Assembly (NCBI GenBank): GCA_028287235.1
Contig: JAQBQB010000006.1
Span: 62,001 to 126,000, forward strand
DNA from: Gemmatimonadota bacterium
GTDB lineage: Bacteria > Gemmatimonadota > Gemmatimonadetes > Gemmatimonadales > Gemmatimonadaceae
Length of the DNA: 64,000 bases
Direction of reading: 5' to 3'
Shown: piece after piece, positions 4,493 to 34,106 of the stretch
How positions within the stretch are numbered: the first letter of the stretch is position 1
Layout of the letters: each line of letters begins with the position of its first letter
The notes under the pieces: generated by a model
What the model was told of the DNA's origin: nothing
Databases searched by the model: none
The model's input: only the letters and a program-made list of their open reading frames with translations
Program-made: the position numbers and the translations under genes

Positions 4493-4524
4493 GTGCGCCT
4501 ACGCCGTGCGCCTACGCCGTGCGC
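4493..4524. repeat. 13-bp tandem repeat over gene ends
   Basis: Two perfect copies of GTGCGCCTACGCC (4493-4505 and 4506-4518) are followed by a partial third. The array sits between the convergent MFS and dehydrogenase genes and contains the dehydrogenase stop codon (4512-4514). Slippage here would change that protein's C-terminus. Confidence 0.7.
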
Positions 4525-5408
4525 TGCTTCGGCGCGTCCTCCGCTCCGGTACGGCGCATCGACACCGCACCCAGGGCGGCGACGTCACGATCGCCGTCGC
4601 CGCGTGCGACCGCCTCGAGAAGACTCTCATGCACGAGGTCGGCCAGCGGCATGGGTGCGCCGGCTGCATCGCTCGCGGCAAGCGCGAGACGCACGTCCTT
4701 GAGCAACAGTGAAATCTTGAACCCGGCAGGCTCGTACTGTTGCCGGGCGATCAACGCGCCATACGTCTTGTACGCCGGCGCCGCGAAGACCCCGTTCGTC
4801 AGGATGTCGAGCAGGTCCGCGGGCGCGATCCCGTGACGCCACGCCATCGCCGCCGCCTCGGCCATCGCTTCCACGGCGGCGCCGAGCATGACGTTGCCGG
4901 CGAGCTTGACGACGTTGGCCCGCTCGGGTTGGGTCCCGATCCACCACGTCCGCTGACCAATTACGTCGAACAGCGGCTCGACGCGGGACGTGACGTTCGA
5001 GTCGCCCGCGGCGACGATGGTGAGCTTTCCCTCTGCCGCGAGCTCGGGACGACCGAACACGGTCGCGGCGACGTACACGAGCCCCGCCGCTCGGTGCCGA
5101 GCAGCAAGGTCGCGCGCCAGCGCGACGGAGATCGTCGCCATGTTCACGTGCACCAGTCCTTTTGGCGCACCGTCGAGAAGGGGATCGATCACCGCGTGCA
5201 CGGCGTCATCGTCGGCGAGCATCGAGAACACCACGTCGCCGGCGAACGCCTCGCGAGCTGACGCGACTGGCCGGGCACCCTGGCGCGCGAGCGCATCCAC
5301 CGCGGCGCGATCCCGATTCCACACTCGCACCGTGTGGCCCGCGTTGACGAGCCTCGCCGCCACACGCGAGCCCATCATTCCGAGTCCAATGAAGCCGATG
5401 TCCATCAT
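4512..5408 (-). CDS. NAD(P)-dependent beta-hydroxyacid dehydrogenase family protein
   Basis: This 298-residue protein has the 3-hydroxyisobutyrate/6-phosphogluconate dehydrogenase fold. An N-terminal Rossmann motif, GFIGLGMMGSRVA (residues 5-17), is followed by the cofactor domain and an all-helical C-terminal domain. That domain holds VKLAGN near residue 169, the place of the catalytic Lys. Family members oxidise short beta-hydroxy acids or reduce semialdehydes (HIBADH, tartronate semialdehyde reductase, GLYR). The exact substrate is not readable here. AGGAAGGG lies before the ATGATG start. The gene stands alone between a convergent exporter and a divergent histidine kinase. Confidence 0.85.
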   Translation of the reverse strand: MMDIGFIGLGMMGSRVAARLVNAGHTVRVWNRDRAAVDALARQGARPVASAREAFAGDVVFSMLADDDAVHAVIDPLLDGAPKGLVHVNMATISVALARDLAARHRAAGLVYVAATVFGRPELAAEGKLTIVAAGDSNVTSRVEPLFDVIGQRTWWIGTQPERANVVKLAGNVMLGAAVEAMAEAAAMAWRHGIAPADLLDILTNGVFAAPAYKTYGALIARQQYEPAGFKISLLLKDVRLALAASDAAGAPMPLADLVHESLLEAVARGDGDRDVAALGAVSMRRTGAEDAPKQRTA

Positions 5409-8450: not shown

Positions 8451-8476
8451 CCAAGTCAAACCGAATGCTCTAGCGC
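8444..8476. terminator. Possible bidirectional hairpin at convergent gene ends
   Basis: GCGCTAG (8444-8450) and CTAGCGC (8470-8476) form a perfect 7-bp inverted repeat with a 19-nt loop. The stop codons of both convergent genes lie inside the arms. There is no clear T-run, so termination is only suggested. Confidence 0.3.
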
Positions 8477-9180
8477 GACCGCCCCGCCGCGGCGCGTTCC
8501 TTCATGACGACCGCCGCGGTTCCGACCGCCGCGGTCGTGAGCAAGAACGGCAACAGCGGCGCATAGAGGTGCGCGTACACCAACAGCAGCCCGCCCGCGG
8601 CGGCGCCCGAGAATAAGGAGATGAGAATGCCGGCGAGCAGCCGTCGTTCGTCGATGGTCGCCGACCAGTGCGCGAAGTCGCCGAAGAGCAGGATGAACGC
8701 TCCGGTCGCCGCCGTCGACAGCACGCCCTCCACGTGCAGCGTTTGAACCGCGACGCTTTGCATTCCCATCGCCAACGCCCAGAGCGCGAGGAGAGCGCGC
8801 GTCACGCGCATCGTCGGCTCGCCGCCGTTCGCGAACCAGACGATCAGGAATGCAGCGTGCGGAATCAGCGACGCACTGAGGACGATCGTCGCCTGGTGCG
8901 GCCAGGTGCCCGGGTGTTCGGACGGCTTGACCATGCGCGTCGCGAGATAGACCCCGGCCGCGAATGCAGCCATCGGAATTGCCACGCTCACCACACCGGG
9001 GCCGCCCGCGCCCGCCACTCCCAGCCCGAGAAACGCAACGTTCCCCGTCATGAACGCCGAAAAGATTCTTCCCAACGCGAGGTAGCTGATGGCGTCCACA
9101 GCGCCCGACGACACCGTCAACGCGTTCAGCAGCAGATCGCGAATCCTGAGCTCGACCGCCTCATCGCCCCAAGTCGCCAC
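8470..9180 (-). CDS. DUF1275 (YoaK-like) membrane protein
   Basis: This 236-residue protein has about six hydrophobic helices. Its N-terminal half carries the DUF1275 hallmarks SGAVDAISYLALGRIFSAFM and TGNVAFLGLG, with MGMQSVAVQTL in the middle. Function is not established for the family, which is sometimes annotated as a transporter. The start lies 4 nt after the oxalate decarboxylase stop, so it is almost certainly the third gene of that operon. By context it may move oxalate, formate or another small anion, but that is an inference. The C-terminus is short and basic. Confidence 0.85.
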   Translation of the reverse strand: MATWGDEAVELRIRDLLLNALTVSSGAVDAISYLALGRIFSAFMTGNVAFLGLGVAGAGGPGVVSVAIPMAAFAAGVYLATRMVKPSEHPGTWPHQATIVLSASLIPHAAFLIVWFANGGEPTMRVTRALLALWALAMGMQSVAVQTLHVEGVLSTAATGAFILLFGDFAHWSATIDERRLLAGILISLFSGAAAGGLLLVYAHLYAPLLPFLLTTAAVGTAAVVMKERAAAGRSR

Positions 9181-12963: not shown

Positions 12964-13023
12964 GATGGTGAATCTCGGTCGTCCCGGCGACGCCGTCTTG
13001 AATCGGATTGTTGTGCGGAACGA

Positions 13024-13056
13024 CACGTCAAGCCGTACACATGTACTCTTGACGTG
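13024..13056. promoter_or_regulatory. 33-bp dyad between oxalate operon and sensor kinase gene
   Basis: CACGTCAAG (13024-13032) and CTTGACGTG (13048-13056) form a perfect 9-bp inverted repeat. Nested inside is a second one, GTACA-CA-TGTAC (13035-13046). Each outer arm contains an outward-facing TTGACG that could serve as a -35 element, one for the oxalate operon on the minus strand and one for the sensor kinase on the plus strand. No good -10 hexamer is obvious. The position and symmetry suggest a shared operator. Confidence 0.6.
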
Positions 13057-13085
13057 ACCATATGCTCCCCTGCCATCTTCGGACC

Positions 13086-16000
13086 ATGTTGCGGGCGTGC
13101 TCATCCCGAAGGACGGGACCGTGGTGGCGTGTCATCGTCTCGCTCGCCTGGCGAGCGGGAGCGATCGTCATCGCGCCGCCTATTGCCGCGCAGCAGCTGC
13201 CCTCGTCGGTCGCCGAGTATCAGCACGACCGCTGGCTGTTGCGCGACGGGCTGCCCGGCACTCGCGTCGAAGCGATTCTCCAGAGTCCCGACGGATATCT
13301 CTGGTTCTCCACGCTGAACGGACTCGTTCGTTTCGACGGCGTGCGCTTCTCGATCTTCGATCGAACCAATACACCCGCGCTCCGCGACGCCGACGCCTTC
13401 CCCACGCGTCCGCTGCTCGTCGATCGCCACGGTGTCATGTGGATCGGCACCACCGCGGGGCTCGTCCAATACGAGCACGGCGAGTTGCGCCATGTTCGCA
13501 ATTCGGGCGATGCGCGCGGTGCCAACGTCGGCGAGATCGCCGGCATGGTGGAGGATCGCGCCGGCACGCTCTGGGCGTACGACTCGTCCACCGTCGGCGG
13601 GTTGCTCGTGATGCGCGACGGCCGCTTCCAGCTTGCCGCGGAACGATCCGCGCTGCATCACCGCATCACGGCCCTGGCCGCGGACAAGAGCGGCGCGCTC
13701 TGGATCGGAACCTCGGGAGGCGGGGTCGTTCGAATGAGCGGCGCGACCGCCACGACGTTCACGACGCACACGGGGCTGCCCGACAATTTCGTGACGTCGC
13801 TCTTCGTCGCCGCCGACAGCACCGTCTGGGTCGGTACGGAGCGTGGATTCTCGCGCCTCGAGCATGGTGTGCTCGTGCCGCACTCGCTCGCCAGCCTCGG
13901 CGGCACGCGCGGCATGGTGCGAACGATCGCCGAAGCGCGGGACGGCGGGATCTGGCTCGGCACCGACGACTATGGGCTGCTTCGCTGGCGGAACGGCCAG
14001 CTCTCGTCGTACGCGATGCACGAGCAGTTCGTCTCCGATCTCACCGACAACCTCGTGACGTCGGTCTTCGTCGATCGCGAAGGGACCTTGTGGGCCGGCA
14101 CGGGCGTGGGCCTCGACGAGTTTCGGACGGCGAGCTTCGTGACGTTCAGCGCCGGCCAGGGCCTGCCGACGATGACACCCGGAGCGCTGCACTGGAGTGG
14201 CGACCAACTCTGGTTGGCGCCAAAGACAGGTGGGCTCGTGCACGGTACTCCGGGACGATTCGTCGCCGCGAGCCTTCGCGGGCTGGACGGAGTCCGCGTG
14301 TTCGGCATGGCGCCCGGCCGGGACGGAGGACTCTGGCTCTCGTCCACCGATGGAGTATTCCACTACCGCGACGGGACGGTGCAACGGCGGACTGCGCGCG
14401 ATGGACTCTCCGGTGGCTGGGTCCTCGCCGTGCTCGAGGATCGTGACGGGCGCATCTGGGCGGGTACGCTGGCCGGCGGTGTCCATCGCCTCGACAGTGC
14501 CGGCGCCAGGTCGTTCACTACTGCGAACGGCCTCGCCGGCGATCGCGTGCGCAGTCTCCTCGAAGACCGGCAGGGTGCGGTTTGGATTGGCACGGCCGAC
14601 GGCATCTCGCGAGTTCGCCATGATTCCGTTACCTCGTTCTTCACCGAGACACGGGGGCGCGGACCGAGTGTGACGTCGATCTACGAGGATCGCCGCGGCC
14701 GGCTCTGGTTCGGCACCTTCCGCGGATTGGCGCGGATCGTCGACGGCCGGGTAACGGTCATCGACCTGCACCACGGACTTCCCGGCGACGTGGTTGCCTC
14801 GATCACCGAAGACGACGACGACGGACTGTGGCTCAGCACCAGCCGCGGCATCGTCCGCATCTCCGCCGACGAAGCCGCCGCGGTGACCGAGGGACGCGCG
14901 CCCGCGGTGCACGCGACGACCTTCGGCACGCTCGACGGCTTGGTCTCGGCCACGCCAGTGTGGAGAGCACAACCCTCGTCGCTGCGCTCGCCCGACGGAA
15001 GGCTGTGGTTCTCGACGCCGCGCGGACTCGCCGTGTTCGATCCCAAACGCCTCGCGCACAACGCGGTTCCTCCGCCCGTACGCGTGGAGGAAGCGCTCGT
15101 CGATGGACAACCGGTGTCGCTGACCGCGCTGTCGCTACCGCCGCGCGCACGGCGGCTCGATCTGCGCTACACCGGGTTGAGCCTGCGCGCTCCGCAGCGC
15201 GTGCGCTTCCGGTACAGGCTCGAAGGGTTCGACACGAGCTGGGTCAACGCGGAGACCGCGCGGTCGGTATCGTACACGAACCTCGCGCCGGGTAACTATC
15301 GCTTTCGTGTCGTCGCAAGCAACGACGACGGCGTCTGGAACGAGCGAGGTGCCGCGCTCGACTTCCGCGTGCTTCCGTCGTTCTATCAAGCCGCATGGTT
15401 TCGCGCGCTGCTCGTGCTTGCCGCGCTGCTCGCGGGTTGGGGCGTCTTGCGTCTGCGCCAGAAACAGCTGGAACGGCGCTTCGCCCTCGTGCTCGCGGAG
15501 CGCAACCGCATGGCGCGCGAGATACACGACACGCTGCTCCAGGGATTCACCGGCATCACGCTACAGCTGCAGCCGGCGTCACGGCTCGTGATGGATGCGC
15601 CGGACCGCGCCCGCGAGCACATCGATCGCATCCTCGCGCTCGCCGACAAGACGCTGCTCGACGCGCGGCGGGCCGTGTGGGACATGCGCGCTCCGGCGCT
15701 TCAGAAGGACAGCCTCGCCGTGGCGTTCGAGGACGTCGTCCGCCACGCCGCCGACGGCAGCGGTTTGGCGGTCCGCATTCGCGTGGTTGGAAAACCGAGG
15801 CGCCTGTCGCCCGCGGCGGAGATGGCCCTGTTTCGTATCGGACAGGAAGCGGTGGCCAACGCTGTGAAGCACGCCAACCCCCGCACCGTGGACGTGGAGC
15901 TCACGTACGACCGGCGAGCCGTGCGACTCGTCGTGCGCGACGACGGCAGAGGGTTCGATCCCCTCGAGAGCTTCACCGGGGCCGGAGGACACTGGGGTCT

Positions 16001-16103
16001 CGTGGGTATGCGCGAGCGCGCCGATCAAGCCGGAGCACAGTTCACCATTACGAGCGCGTCGGGACGTGGAACCGAGATCATGGTCGCGGCCCGCATCCGG
16101 TGA
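13086..16103 (+). CDS. Beta-propeller (two-component regulator propeller) sensor histidine kinase, NarX/HisKA_3 type
   Basis: This protein of about 1005 residues starts at ATG 13086; an earlier in-frame start at 13062 is possible. A signal sequence ending near IAAQQL exports the sensor. About a dozen propeller repeats follow (SPDGYLWFST, DRHGVMWIGT, DRRGRLWFGT), then a Y_Y_Y Ig-like domain (RFRYRLEGFDTSW) and one membrane helix (~772-790). The cytoplasmic part has REIHDTLLQGFTGITLQLQ (His ~813) and the HATPase motifs NAVKHANP and DDGRGFD. This is the reg_prop/HisKA_3 design used to sense periplasmic ligands. The NarL-type regulator 82 nt downstream is the likely partner. Confidence 0.93.
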   Translation: MLRACSSRRTGPWWRVIVSLAWRAGAIVIAPPIAAQQLPSSVAEYQHDRWLLRDGLPGTRVEAILQSPDGYLWFSTLNGLVRFDGVRFSIFDRTNTPALRDADAFPTRPLLVDRHGVMWIGTTAGLVQYEHGELRHVRNSGDARGANVGEIAGMVEDRAGTLWAYDSSTVGGLLVMRDGRFQLAAERSALHHRITALAADKSGALWIGTSGGGVVRMSGATATTFTTHTGLPDNFVTSLFVAADSTVWVGTERGFSRLEHGVLVPHSLASLGGTRGMVRTIAEARDGGIWLGTDDYGLLRWRNGQLSSYAMHEQFVSDLTDNLVTSVFVDREGTLWAGTGVGLDEFRTASFVTFSAGQGLPTMTPGALHWSGDQLWLAPKTGGLVHGTPGRFVAASLRGLDGVRVFGMAPGRDGGLWLSSTDGVFHYRDGTVQRRTARDGLSGGWVLAVLEDRDGRIWAGTLAGGVHRLDSAGARSFTTANGLAGDRVRSLLEDRQGAVWIGTADGISRVRHDSVTSFFTETRGRGPSVTSIYEDRRGRLWFGTFRGLARIVDGRVTVIDLHHGLPGDVVASITEDDDDGLWLSTSRGIVRISADEAAAVTEGRAPAVHATTFGTLDGLVSATPVWRAQPSSLRSPDGRLWFSTPRGLAVFDPKRLAHNAVPPPVRVEEALVDGQPVSLTALSLPPRARRLDLRYTGLSLRAPQRVRFRYRLEGFDTSWVNAETARSVSYTNLAPGNYRFRVVASNDDGVWNERGAALDFRVLPSFYQAAWFRALLVLAALLAGWGVLRLRQKQLERRFALVLAERNRMAREIHDTLLQGFTGITLQLQPASRLVMDAPDRAREHIDRILALADKTLLDARRAVWDMRAPALQKDSLAVAFEDVVRHAADGSGLAVRIRVVGKPRRLSPAAEMALFRIGQEAVANAVKHANPRTVDVELTYDRRAVRLVVRDDGRGFDPLESFTGAGGHWGLVGMRERADQAGAQFTITSASGRGTEIMVAARIR

Positions 16104-16185: not shown

Positions 16186-16818
16186 ATGACCGCGCCCACT
16201 CCCATTCGCGTGCTTGCCGCCGACGACCACCCGATGGTACGCGCCGGTCTTGCCGCGGTCATCGGCGACGAACCGGACATGCAGTTCGTGGCCGAAGCGG
16301 CGTCCGGCCGCGAGGCGGTAGAGTTGTATCGCGCGCATCAACCGGACGTCGTGCTCATGGACCTGCGGATGCCGGGCATGGACGGGTTGGCCGCCGCGCG
16401 CGCGATCATCGCGGAGTATCCCTCTGCGCGCATCGTCATGCTCACCAGCTATGACGGAGACGAGGACATCCACCGCGCGCTCGTCGCGGGGGCCAAAGGC
16501 TACATCCTCAAGGACATGCTGCGCACCCAGGTGCTCGCCACCATCCGCGCCGTGCACCGCGGCAACAAGGTCATTCCGGCGGAGGTGGCCGCGCGGCTGG
16601 CGGAGTTCGTGCCGCGGCTGCAACTGACGGAGCGCGAGCTCGAGGTGCTCGGCCTCGTGTCGAAGGGGTTGAGCAACAAGGAGATCGCGCGCGTCATCGG
16701 CCGCACCGAGGAGACGGTCAAAGCGCATCTCAAGAACGTCTTCGAGAAGCTTGGCGTGGCCGACCGCACCGAGGCCGTCATGCTCGCGGTCCAGCGCGGA
16801 ATCCTGCACGTCGACTGA
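16186..16818 (+). CDS. NarL/FixJ-family response regulator
   Basis: This 210-residue regulator has a receiver domain (acidic pocket ADDH at 12-15, phospho-acceptor Asp59 in VVLMDLRMPGMDG, Lys in KGYILKD). Its LuxR-type helix-turn-helix reads LTEREVL-like (LTERELEVLGLVSKG), then SNKEIARVIGRTEETVKAHL. It follows the propeller kinase and should be phosphorylated by it. NarL-type proteins bind inverted 7-mer sites. Candidate 7-2-7 sites occur just downstream at 16829 and at 2417, and the dyad at 13024 is another possible target. Confidence 0.94.
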   Translation: MTAPTPIRVLAADDHPMVRAGLAAVIGDEPDMQFVAEAASGREAVELYRAHQPDVVLMDLRMPGMDGLAAARAIIAEYPSARIVMLTSYDGDEDIHRALVAGAKGYILKDMLRTQVLATIRAVHRGNKVIPAEVAARLAEFVPRLQLTERELEVLGLVSKGLSNKEIARVIGRTEETVKAHLKNVFEKLGVADRTEAVMLAVQRGILHVD

Positions 16819-16950: not shown

Positions 16951-17859
16951 ATGCCACTTCAATTCGCAACTCGTCGCGCCGGACGTCCGCGCTACTGGCG
17001 TCCACTTCCGCTGGAGACCGCCGACACCGTCTGCGGCGAAGGCAACGTCGCCGCGCAGCCGGTTCACGCGCACGAGGCCGTTCAGGTGATCCTTCCCGGT
17101 TCGCGATTCGCGGTGACCGACGGAAGAGGCCGCGCGGCGGTCGTGGGTCCGGGCGATCTCTACGTCGCCGCGCCGCTCGAGCTGATCGGCGCGCAGAGTC
17201 TGGACGGCGAACCGTGCATCGCACGCGTCATCCTCGTCGGTCCATCCGCATTGTCGCGGCTCAGAGTGGAGCCCTCGGAGCTCTGGCGTGGAACGGCGCC
17301 AGGCGGCCGACAGTTCGTGCTTCACGACCCTGGCCTATACGCCGAGCTGTGGACGCTCGTGGGGGATCTGCGCGGACCGCTCGTCTCGCTCGCGTGCGGC
17401 CCGCGGTTGCTCGGCTGTCTCACGCGACTGCTTACGCAACTGGCGCCGGAACCGGTGGCCGCGGCGAAGTCACGGTCTGGCCGCCAGGTCGATGGTGTTC
17501 GCCGCGTTTGCGCGCATCTTCGCGCGCACGTCGCCGACAACGTCTCGCTCGACGACCTCGCGCACGTGGCGGGGCTGAGCAAGTTCTATTTGCTGCGCGC
17601 CTTCCGCCGCGCGCACGGCGTGACGCCGCACGCCTACCAGATGCAGTTGCGCCTCGCGCATGCCTGGCGGTTGATCGTCGACGGGCGGCCCTTGTCGCGC
17701 ACCACGTACGACGCGGGCTTCGCCGACCAGAGTCACCTCACGCGCCGATTCGCCGAGGTGTTTGGCCTCACGCCGGCTCGATACGCGCGAGAGCTCGCGT
17801 TGCTGCCCGGTGTCGAGTCGGCCAGCGCGTCCGGCATTTCGGTGCCGGCGGCCGCGTGA
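16951..17859 (+). CDS. AraC-family transcriptional regulator
   Basis: This protein has about 302 residues from ATG 16951; upstream in-frame starts at 16882 and 16915 are less likely because they run through the putative operator. The N-terminal half is cupin-like (AQPVHAHEAVQVILP, with GPGDLYVAAPLE), as in ligand-binding AraC regulators. The C-terminal ~100 residues hold the two helix-turn-helices: LDDLAHVAGLSKFYLLRAF and the second ending in AGFADQSHLTRRFAEVFG. It is the last gene of the regulatory set opposite the oxalate operon. The inducer is unknown. The tail after TPARYAREL is Ala/Ser-rich. Confidence 0.9.
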   Translation: MPLQFATRRAGRPRYWRPLPLETADTVCGEGNVAAQPVHAHEAVQVILPGSRFAVTDGRGRAAVVGPGDLYVAAPLELIGAQSLDGEPCIARVILVGPSALSRLRVEPSELWRGTAPGGRQFVLHDPGLYAELWTLVGDLRGPLVSLACGPRLLGCLTRLLTQLAPEPVAAAKSRSGRQVDGVRRVCAHLRAHVADNVSLDDLAHVAGLSKFYLLRAFRRAHGVTPHAYQMQLRLAHAWRLIVDGRPLSRTTYDAGFADQSHLTRRFAEVFGLTPARYARELALLPGVESASASGISVPAAA

Positions 17860-30359: not shown

Positions 30360-30395
30360 AGCGCGGGCCGTTCGCATCGGCGAACGGCCCGCGCT
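30360..30395. terminator. Perfect 16-bp hairpin after zinc-finger gene
   Basis: AGCGCGGGCCGTTCGC, loop ATCG, and its exact complement form a perfect 16-bp stem. It lies 13 nt downstream of the zinc-finger stop on the minus strand and 107 nt upstream of the peptidase start. No clear U-run follows, so it may terminate, stabilise the mRNA 3' end, or be an operator. Confidence 0.6.
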
Positions 30396-33938: not shown

Positions 33939-34106
33939 CATCCTGAGGGAGCGTAGCGACCGAAGGATCGGCGTCCTTGGACGGCGATCCTTCGCTTCGC
34001 TCAGGATGACACGCGGGCGCATGTCATCCTGAGGGAGCGTCGCGACCGAAGGATCGGCGTCCTTGGACAGCGATCCTTCGCTTCGCTCAGGATGACACGC
34101 GGGCGC
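33939..34106. repeat. Two tandem palindromic repeats, 86-bp period
   Basis: Two copies start with CATCCTGAGGGAGCG at 33939 and 34025 and differ at only two positions over 82 bp. Each is an imperfect palindrome: the 5' arm CATCCTGAG...AAGGATCG faces CGATCCTTCG...CTCAGGATG. They look like REP/BIME-type dispersed repeats placed 3' of the MerC gene and just after the LytTR gene. Copies elsewhere would be expected. Confidence 0.8.

Follow-up and report, generated by a model that had tools for sequence, protein, structure and literature searches.

In E. coli, the frc/yfdX oxalate operon adjoins evgAS, and sites of the form TACA-N2-TGTA, taken directly from the E. coli K-12 genome sequence, are found upstream of frc (TTCTTACAACTGTAAGAA), yfdX (twice) and ydeP (CCTACACCTGTAAGAA). 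Boxes of this kind are bound by EvgA. NarL, a regulator of the same family, has the heptamer consensus TACYYMT. At E. coli ogt, the NarL II 7-2-7 site lies directly against the -35 box, with its centre at -44.5 (PMC7419079). Activated EvgA strongly raises the expression of ydeP, and the oxalate operon next to evgAS is highly induced in evgS-constitutive mutants (PMC4283999).

The stretch of Gemmatimonadota DNA analysed here (64,000 nucleotides, hereafter the window) contains a locus of related content. Three leftward genes that almost abut or overlap encode an FdhF/YdeP-family molybdopterin oxidoreductase (TIGR01701; 10345-12963, minus strand), which shares 43% identity with E. coli YdeP, a bicupin oxalate decarboxylase (TIGR03404; 9185-10348, minus strand) and a DUF1275 protein (8470-9180, minus strand), the latter being the last gene of the likely operon. 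Facing them on the plus strand are genes for a sensor histidine kinase with Reg_prop propeller, Y_Y_Y, HisKA_3 and HATPase domains (13086-16103), a NarL/VraR-type response regulator consisting of a receiver and a GerE/LuxR helix-turn-helix (16186-16818) and an AraC-type regulator (16951-17859). The sole intergenic room lies between the oxidoreductase start and the kinase start, a divergent region of 122 bp (12964-13085) that was delimited by gene calls based on codon usage, with a GC content of 56.6% versus 66.3% for the contig.

Within this gap, positions 13024-13056 read CACGTCAAG CC GTACA CA TGTAC T CTTGACGTG, giving an element of 33 bp. The outer inverted repeat, CACGTCAAG-N15-CTTGACGTG, has its left arm at 13024-13032 and its right arm at 13048-13056, complementary at 9/9 positions across a 15-nt spacer. 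Nested inside is a 5-2-5 dyad, GTACA-CA-TGTAC (13035-13046, core TACANNTGTA), whose arms at 13035-13039 and 13042-13046 are complementary at 5/5 positions across a 2-nt spacer, and which is the putative dimer site of a regulator. Each outer arm carries one TTGACG facing outward, on the minus strand at 13031-13026 in the left arm and on the plus strand at 13049-13054 in the right arm. The first-pass annotation had reported a perfect 9-bp repeat around a 5-bp one, an outward TTGACG in each outer arm, and a position between an oxalate operon and its putative sensor/regulator. All three descriptions hold, the repeats being exact and the oxidoreductase and bicupin oxalate decarboxylase genes facing those for the kinase, the NarL-type regulator and the AraC-type protein; the outer axis (13040.0) and the inner axis (13040.5) are offset by half a base, so the dyads are nested but not strictly concentric.

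Most likely, the element is an operator of an ordinary kind that two divergent promoters share. More specifically, we tentatively propose, with a confidence a little short of even, that it forms the common cis-regulatory core of both promoters, with a NarL-type dimer on the inner dyad. A symmetric dimeric activator would bind GTACA-CA-TGTAC, the likeliest ligand being the phosphorylated form of the NarL-type regulator (16186-16818), and the bound dimer would contact RNA polymerase at both outward TTGACG -35 boxes. In this way, a single dimer could turn on two operons, that of the oxidoreductase and oxalate decarboxylase to the left and its own, with the kinase and regulator genes, to the right, and the outer 9-bp symmetry would arise because two near-identical -35 boxes stand equidistant from one dimer. 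The 2-bp spacing of the inner dyad suits a NarL-type dimer. As at the NarL 7-2-7 sites of ogt (NarL II) and yeaR, the half-sites, here with arms of 5 bp where about 5-7 bp would be expected of such an operator, are 2 bp apart, the centre falls near -44 and the site adjoins a -35-like hexamer. Unlike those sites, the half-site in the window does not match the NarL heptamer, and it would serve two divergent promoters. If bound as proposed, the element would be a compact operator for a Reg_prop kinase/NarL-type pair, systems with little-known signals and targets, and would link the decarboxylation of oxalate with an oxidoreductase of the YdeP family, reminiscent of the acid response of E. coli. 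If the proposal is wrong, the element is merely another divergent promoter region.

The geometry of the proposal depends on reading TTGACG as a -35 box, with candidates at 13049-13054 (plus strand) for the sensor/regulator operon and at 13026-13031 (minus strand) for the oxidoreductase/oxalate operon. The inner dyad centre lies 8.5 and 9.5 bp from the two hexamers, corresponding to -43.5 and -44.5 if they are -35 boxes, and transcription would then be expected to start near 13084 on the kinase side, two bases ahead of its ATG, and near 12996 on the other side. A search of the locus for sigma-70-like promoters returned none on either strand. At the 16-18 bp distance used for -35 and -10 hexamers, the best -10 candidates, TGCCAT on the plus strand (spacer 16) and TCCGAT on the minus strand (spacer 18), are unconvincing, matching at 3/6 positions. 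The expectation that the element sits at the divergent promoters is thus upheld in part: the divergent gap and the outward -35-like hexamers are there, but neither side offers a matching -10 box. Further inspection showed that TTGAC occurs 31 times in the sense and 16 times in the antisense orientation in the upstream regions of this genome (16 versus 9 for TTGACG). In addition, three BlaI-type genes (PF03965) in this genome show, as read by eye, an A+T-rich hexamer about 17 nt downstream of a TTGACA or TTGACT, which makes a sigma-70-like -35 box believable in this organism.

We then considered the chance level. Among 3000 dinucleotide shuffles of the 122-bp gap, 36 (1.2%) produced a perfect 9-bp inverted repeat with a spacer of up to 20; of the 51 divergent gaps in 439 kb of the window's genome, 7 have such a repeat, where 2.45 would be expected. 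Nesting of a 9-bp and a 5-bp dyad with axes no more than 1 bp apart, a statistic picked only once the element had been seen, came up in a single one of 20,000 dinucleotide shuffles; the same 439 kb holds roughly eleven nested cases, all intergenic and many of them hairpin- or terminator-like. Given these shuffle rates and the intergenic position of every nested case in the 439 kb, the 33-bp element is unlikely to have arisen by chance, with the reservation that the statistic was picked after the fact and that the window holds repeats of greater symmetry. The core TACANNTGTA is likewise rare, with 5 sites in the 5.73-Mb genome, where the reversed control has 19, and all five fall outside the called genes. 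A reading in which two -35 boxes happen to flank a chance palindrome, so that the symmetry has no joint meaning, would draw on the fact that two outward -35 boxes already supply 6 of the 9 outer pairs, that the 1.2% frequency of the outer repeat has to be set beside the many gaps examined, and that conservation was seen neither in the genomes of the class nor in L070 and L066, the two genomes with the closest oxidoreductase relatives. Against it stand the rarity of the nested form in shuffles and of the inner core in the genome, and we regard this reading as unlikely, though still worth keeping in mind.

The conservation search provided little to set beside the element. Among the 394 genomes of the class that were searched, only the window matched the combined pattern, with none of the 393 others doing so at up to three mismatches. 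The oxidoreductase has its closest relative (82% identity) in a Gemmatimonadetes MAG, L070, followed by that of L066 (67%); upstream of both, we found no dyad and no kinase neighbour, and other genes are located there. None of the 76 upstream regions of oxidoreductase relatives contained TACANNTGTA. On the regulatory side, no such site precedes the kinase operon that accompanies a 67%-identical regulator (L176), nor was one found upstream of four more distantly related kinase operons, which makes five related operons in all; the related kinase operons in G021, G070, G136 and G096 gave no matching site. Within the family, oxalate decarboxylases comparable to that of the window were found in only three genomes, which belong to another genus, with identities of 39-42%; in one of them, G021, the decarboxylase and the related kinase lie on separate contigs. 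No relative keeping the divergent arrangement was found among the genomes compared. The hydroxyisobutyrate-dehydrogenase-like gene at 4512-5408, about 3 kb beyond the operon, encodes a product 74% identical to that of L070:5077-5967, which is directly upstream of the L070 oxidoreductase gene. Since this dehydrogenase gene adjoins the oxidoreductase gene in L070 but not in the window, the cluster has been rearranged. As far as such sequence comparisons can tell, they lean against a conserved operator. Between the oxalate operon and the dehydrogenase gene, we also noted a gene for a MEDS/PAS histidine kinase with a DcmR sensory domain (PF14417; 6567-8450).

The outer dyad might itself be the operator of a repressor, of the AraC-type protein or of another regulator that would cover both -35 boxes and shut both promoters together. 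This reading fits the divergent layout and the outer arms, which are perfect, exceed the inner ones in length and overlap the two TTGACG hexamers. AraC-type proteins, however, usually read asymmetric or direct sites. Moreover, the outer dyad occurs just once in the genome, and half-sites and single arms occur elsewhere in the window at chance level. When the outer dyad was tried as a recurrent operator across 179 genomes of the family, it yielded chance-like matches only, with the reversed control at least as common, and a recurrent operator of this form was rejected. Overall, an outer-dyad operator at this locus seems unlikely, to about the same degree as the chance palindrome.

The inner core raises another candidate, as TACANNTGTA is identical to the classical cop box and is shared with the operators of CopY, BlaI and MecI, and the genome carries seven PF03965 genes. 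A repressor of the BlaI/MecI/CopY family (PF03965) might therefore bind it. The refined cop operator has the consensus RNYKACANNTGTMRNY (PMC7253601), and the flanks in the window, CCGTACACATGTACTC, differ from it, failing at the R and Y positions. The core was found within about 400 bp upstream of none of the seven PF03965 genes (0/7), the three of them with an apparent promoter of their own carry different palindromes, and no PF03965 gene is present at the locus. Taken together, these observations make such a repressor a very improbable binder.

A role of the element as RNA, either a leader hairpin or a terminator, was also evaluated. Folded in isolation, the 41 nt reach -16.9 kcal/mol on the plus strand and -19.1 kcal/mol on the minus strand, with z-scores of -4.6 and -3.8, respectively. 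But any perfect dyad folds, and for the whole gap the z-scores are just -1.5 and -1.1. The element has no T run, drew no terminator call and gave no match in Rfam. A hairpin or terminator role is therefore unsupported, and we consider it very unlikely indeed.

Returning to the proposed NarL-type dimer on the inner dyad, the closest likeness is to the EvgSA system. The element contains the TACA-N2-TGTA core at a putative target promoter, the locus encodes a two-component system with a NarL-family regulator, and the putative targets are, as in the EvgSA regulon, oxalate genes (beside evgAS in E. coli) and an oxidoreductase of the YdeP/FdhF family. The differences are considerable. The extended arms of the frc site, TTCTTACA-N2-TGTAAGAA, are not matched by the window, which reads CCGTACA-CA-TGTACTC, and its flanks CCG/CTC contrast with the TTCT/AGAA-like flanks of the E. 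coli EvgA boxes. EvgS is a kinase of another kind than the Reg_prop kinase of the window, and the oxalate enzyme is a bicupin decarboxylase, where E. coli has Frc/Oxc. The regulator itself does not appear to be an EvgA orthologue, being 24% identical to EvgA with a different recognition helix, and its closest solved relatives are VraR, ChrA and NarL. Because of this low identity, the greater proximity to VraR and NarL and the different helix, the element is judged from its sequence to resemble the EvgA system in core and logic, and not to be a member of it. A bolder idea is that a Gemmatimonadota two-component system has independently reached an EvgA-like box and regulon logic, combining oxalate breakdown, a YdeP-family oxidoreductase, a NarL-type regulator and acid resistance, with one dimer site driving two divergent promoters; we consider this quite improbable. 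The rare TACANNTGTA sites of this genome (contigs C7, C9, C15 and C27; L208-L212) possibly make up a small regulon.

Other symmetric elements were encountered during the analysis. The first-pass annotation had called the 33-bp element the most symmetric intergenic sequence noticed, a rank it loses within the window to the inverted repeats at 30360-30395 and near 34000 (12-bp arms). The former, AGCGCGGGCCGTTCGC-ATCG-GCGAACGGCCCGCGCT, has perfect 16-bp arms and lies in another divergent gap. The region 33961-34080 holds two copies of a dispersed palindromic repeat, CGAAGGATCG...CGATCCTTCG, flanking CTCAGGATGACA...TGTCATCCTGAG, with relatives of this repeat on contig C1 at 109164 and 165783. In another genome of the family, a nested dyad, TCTACGATC-CA-CATAGTACTATG-CA-GATCGTAGA (L181:10231-10264), occupies a short divergent gap with TTGACA upstream of the dyad. 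Finally, several distant FdhF-like homologues (L007, L008, L009, L011 and others, and C23:192551-193438 in the window's own genome) contain exactly one in-frame TGA, which may encode selenocysteine.
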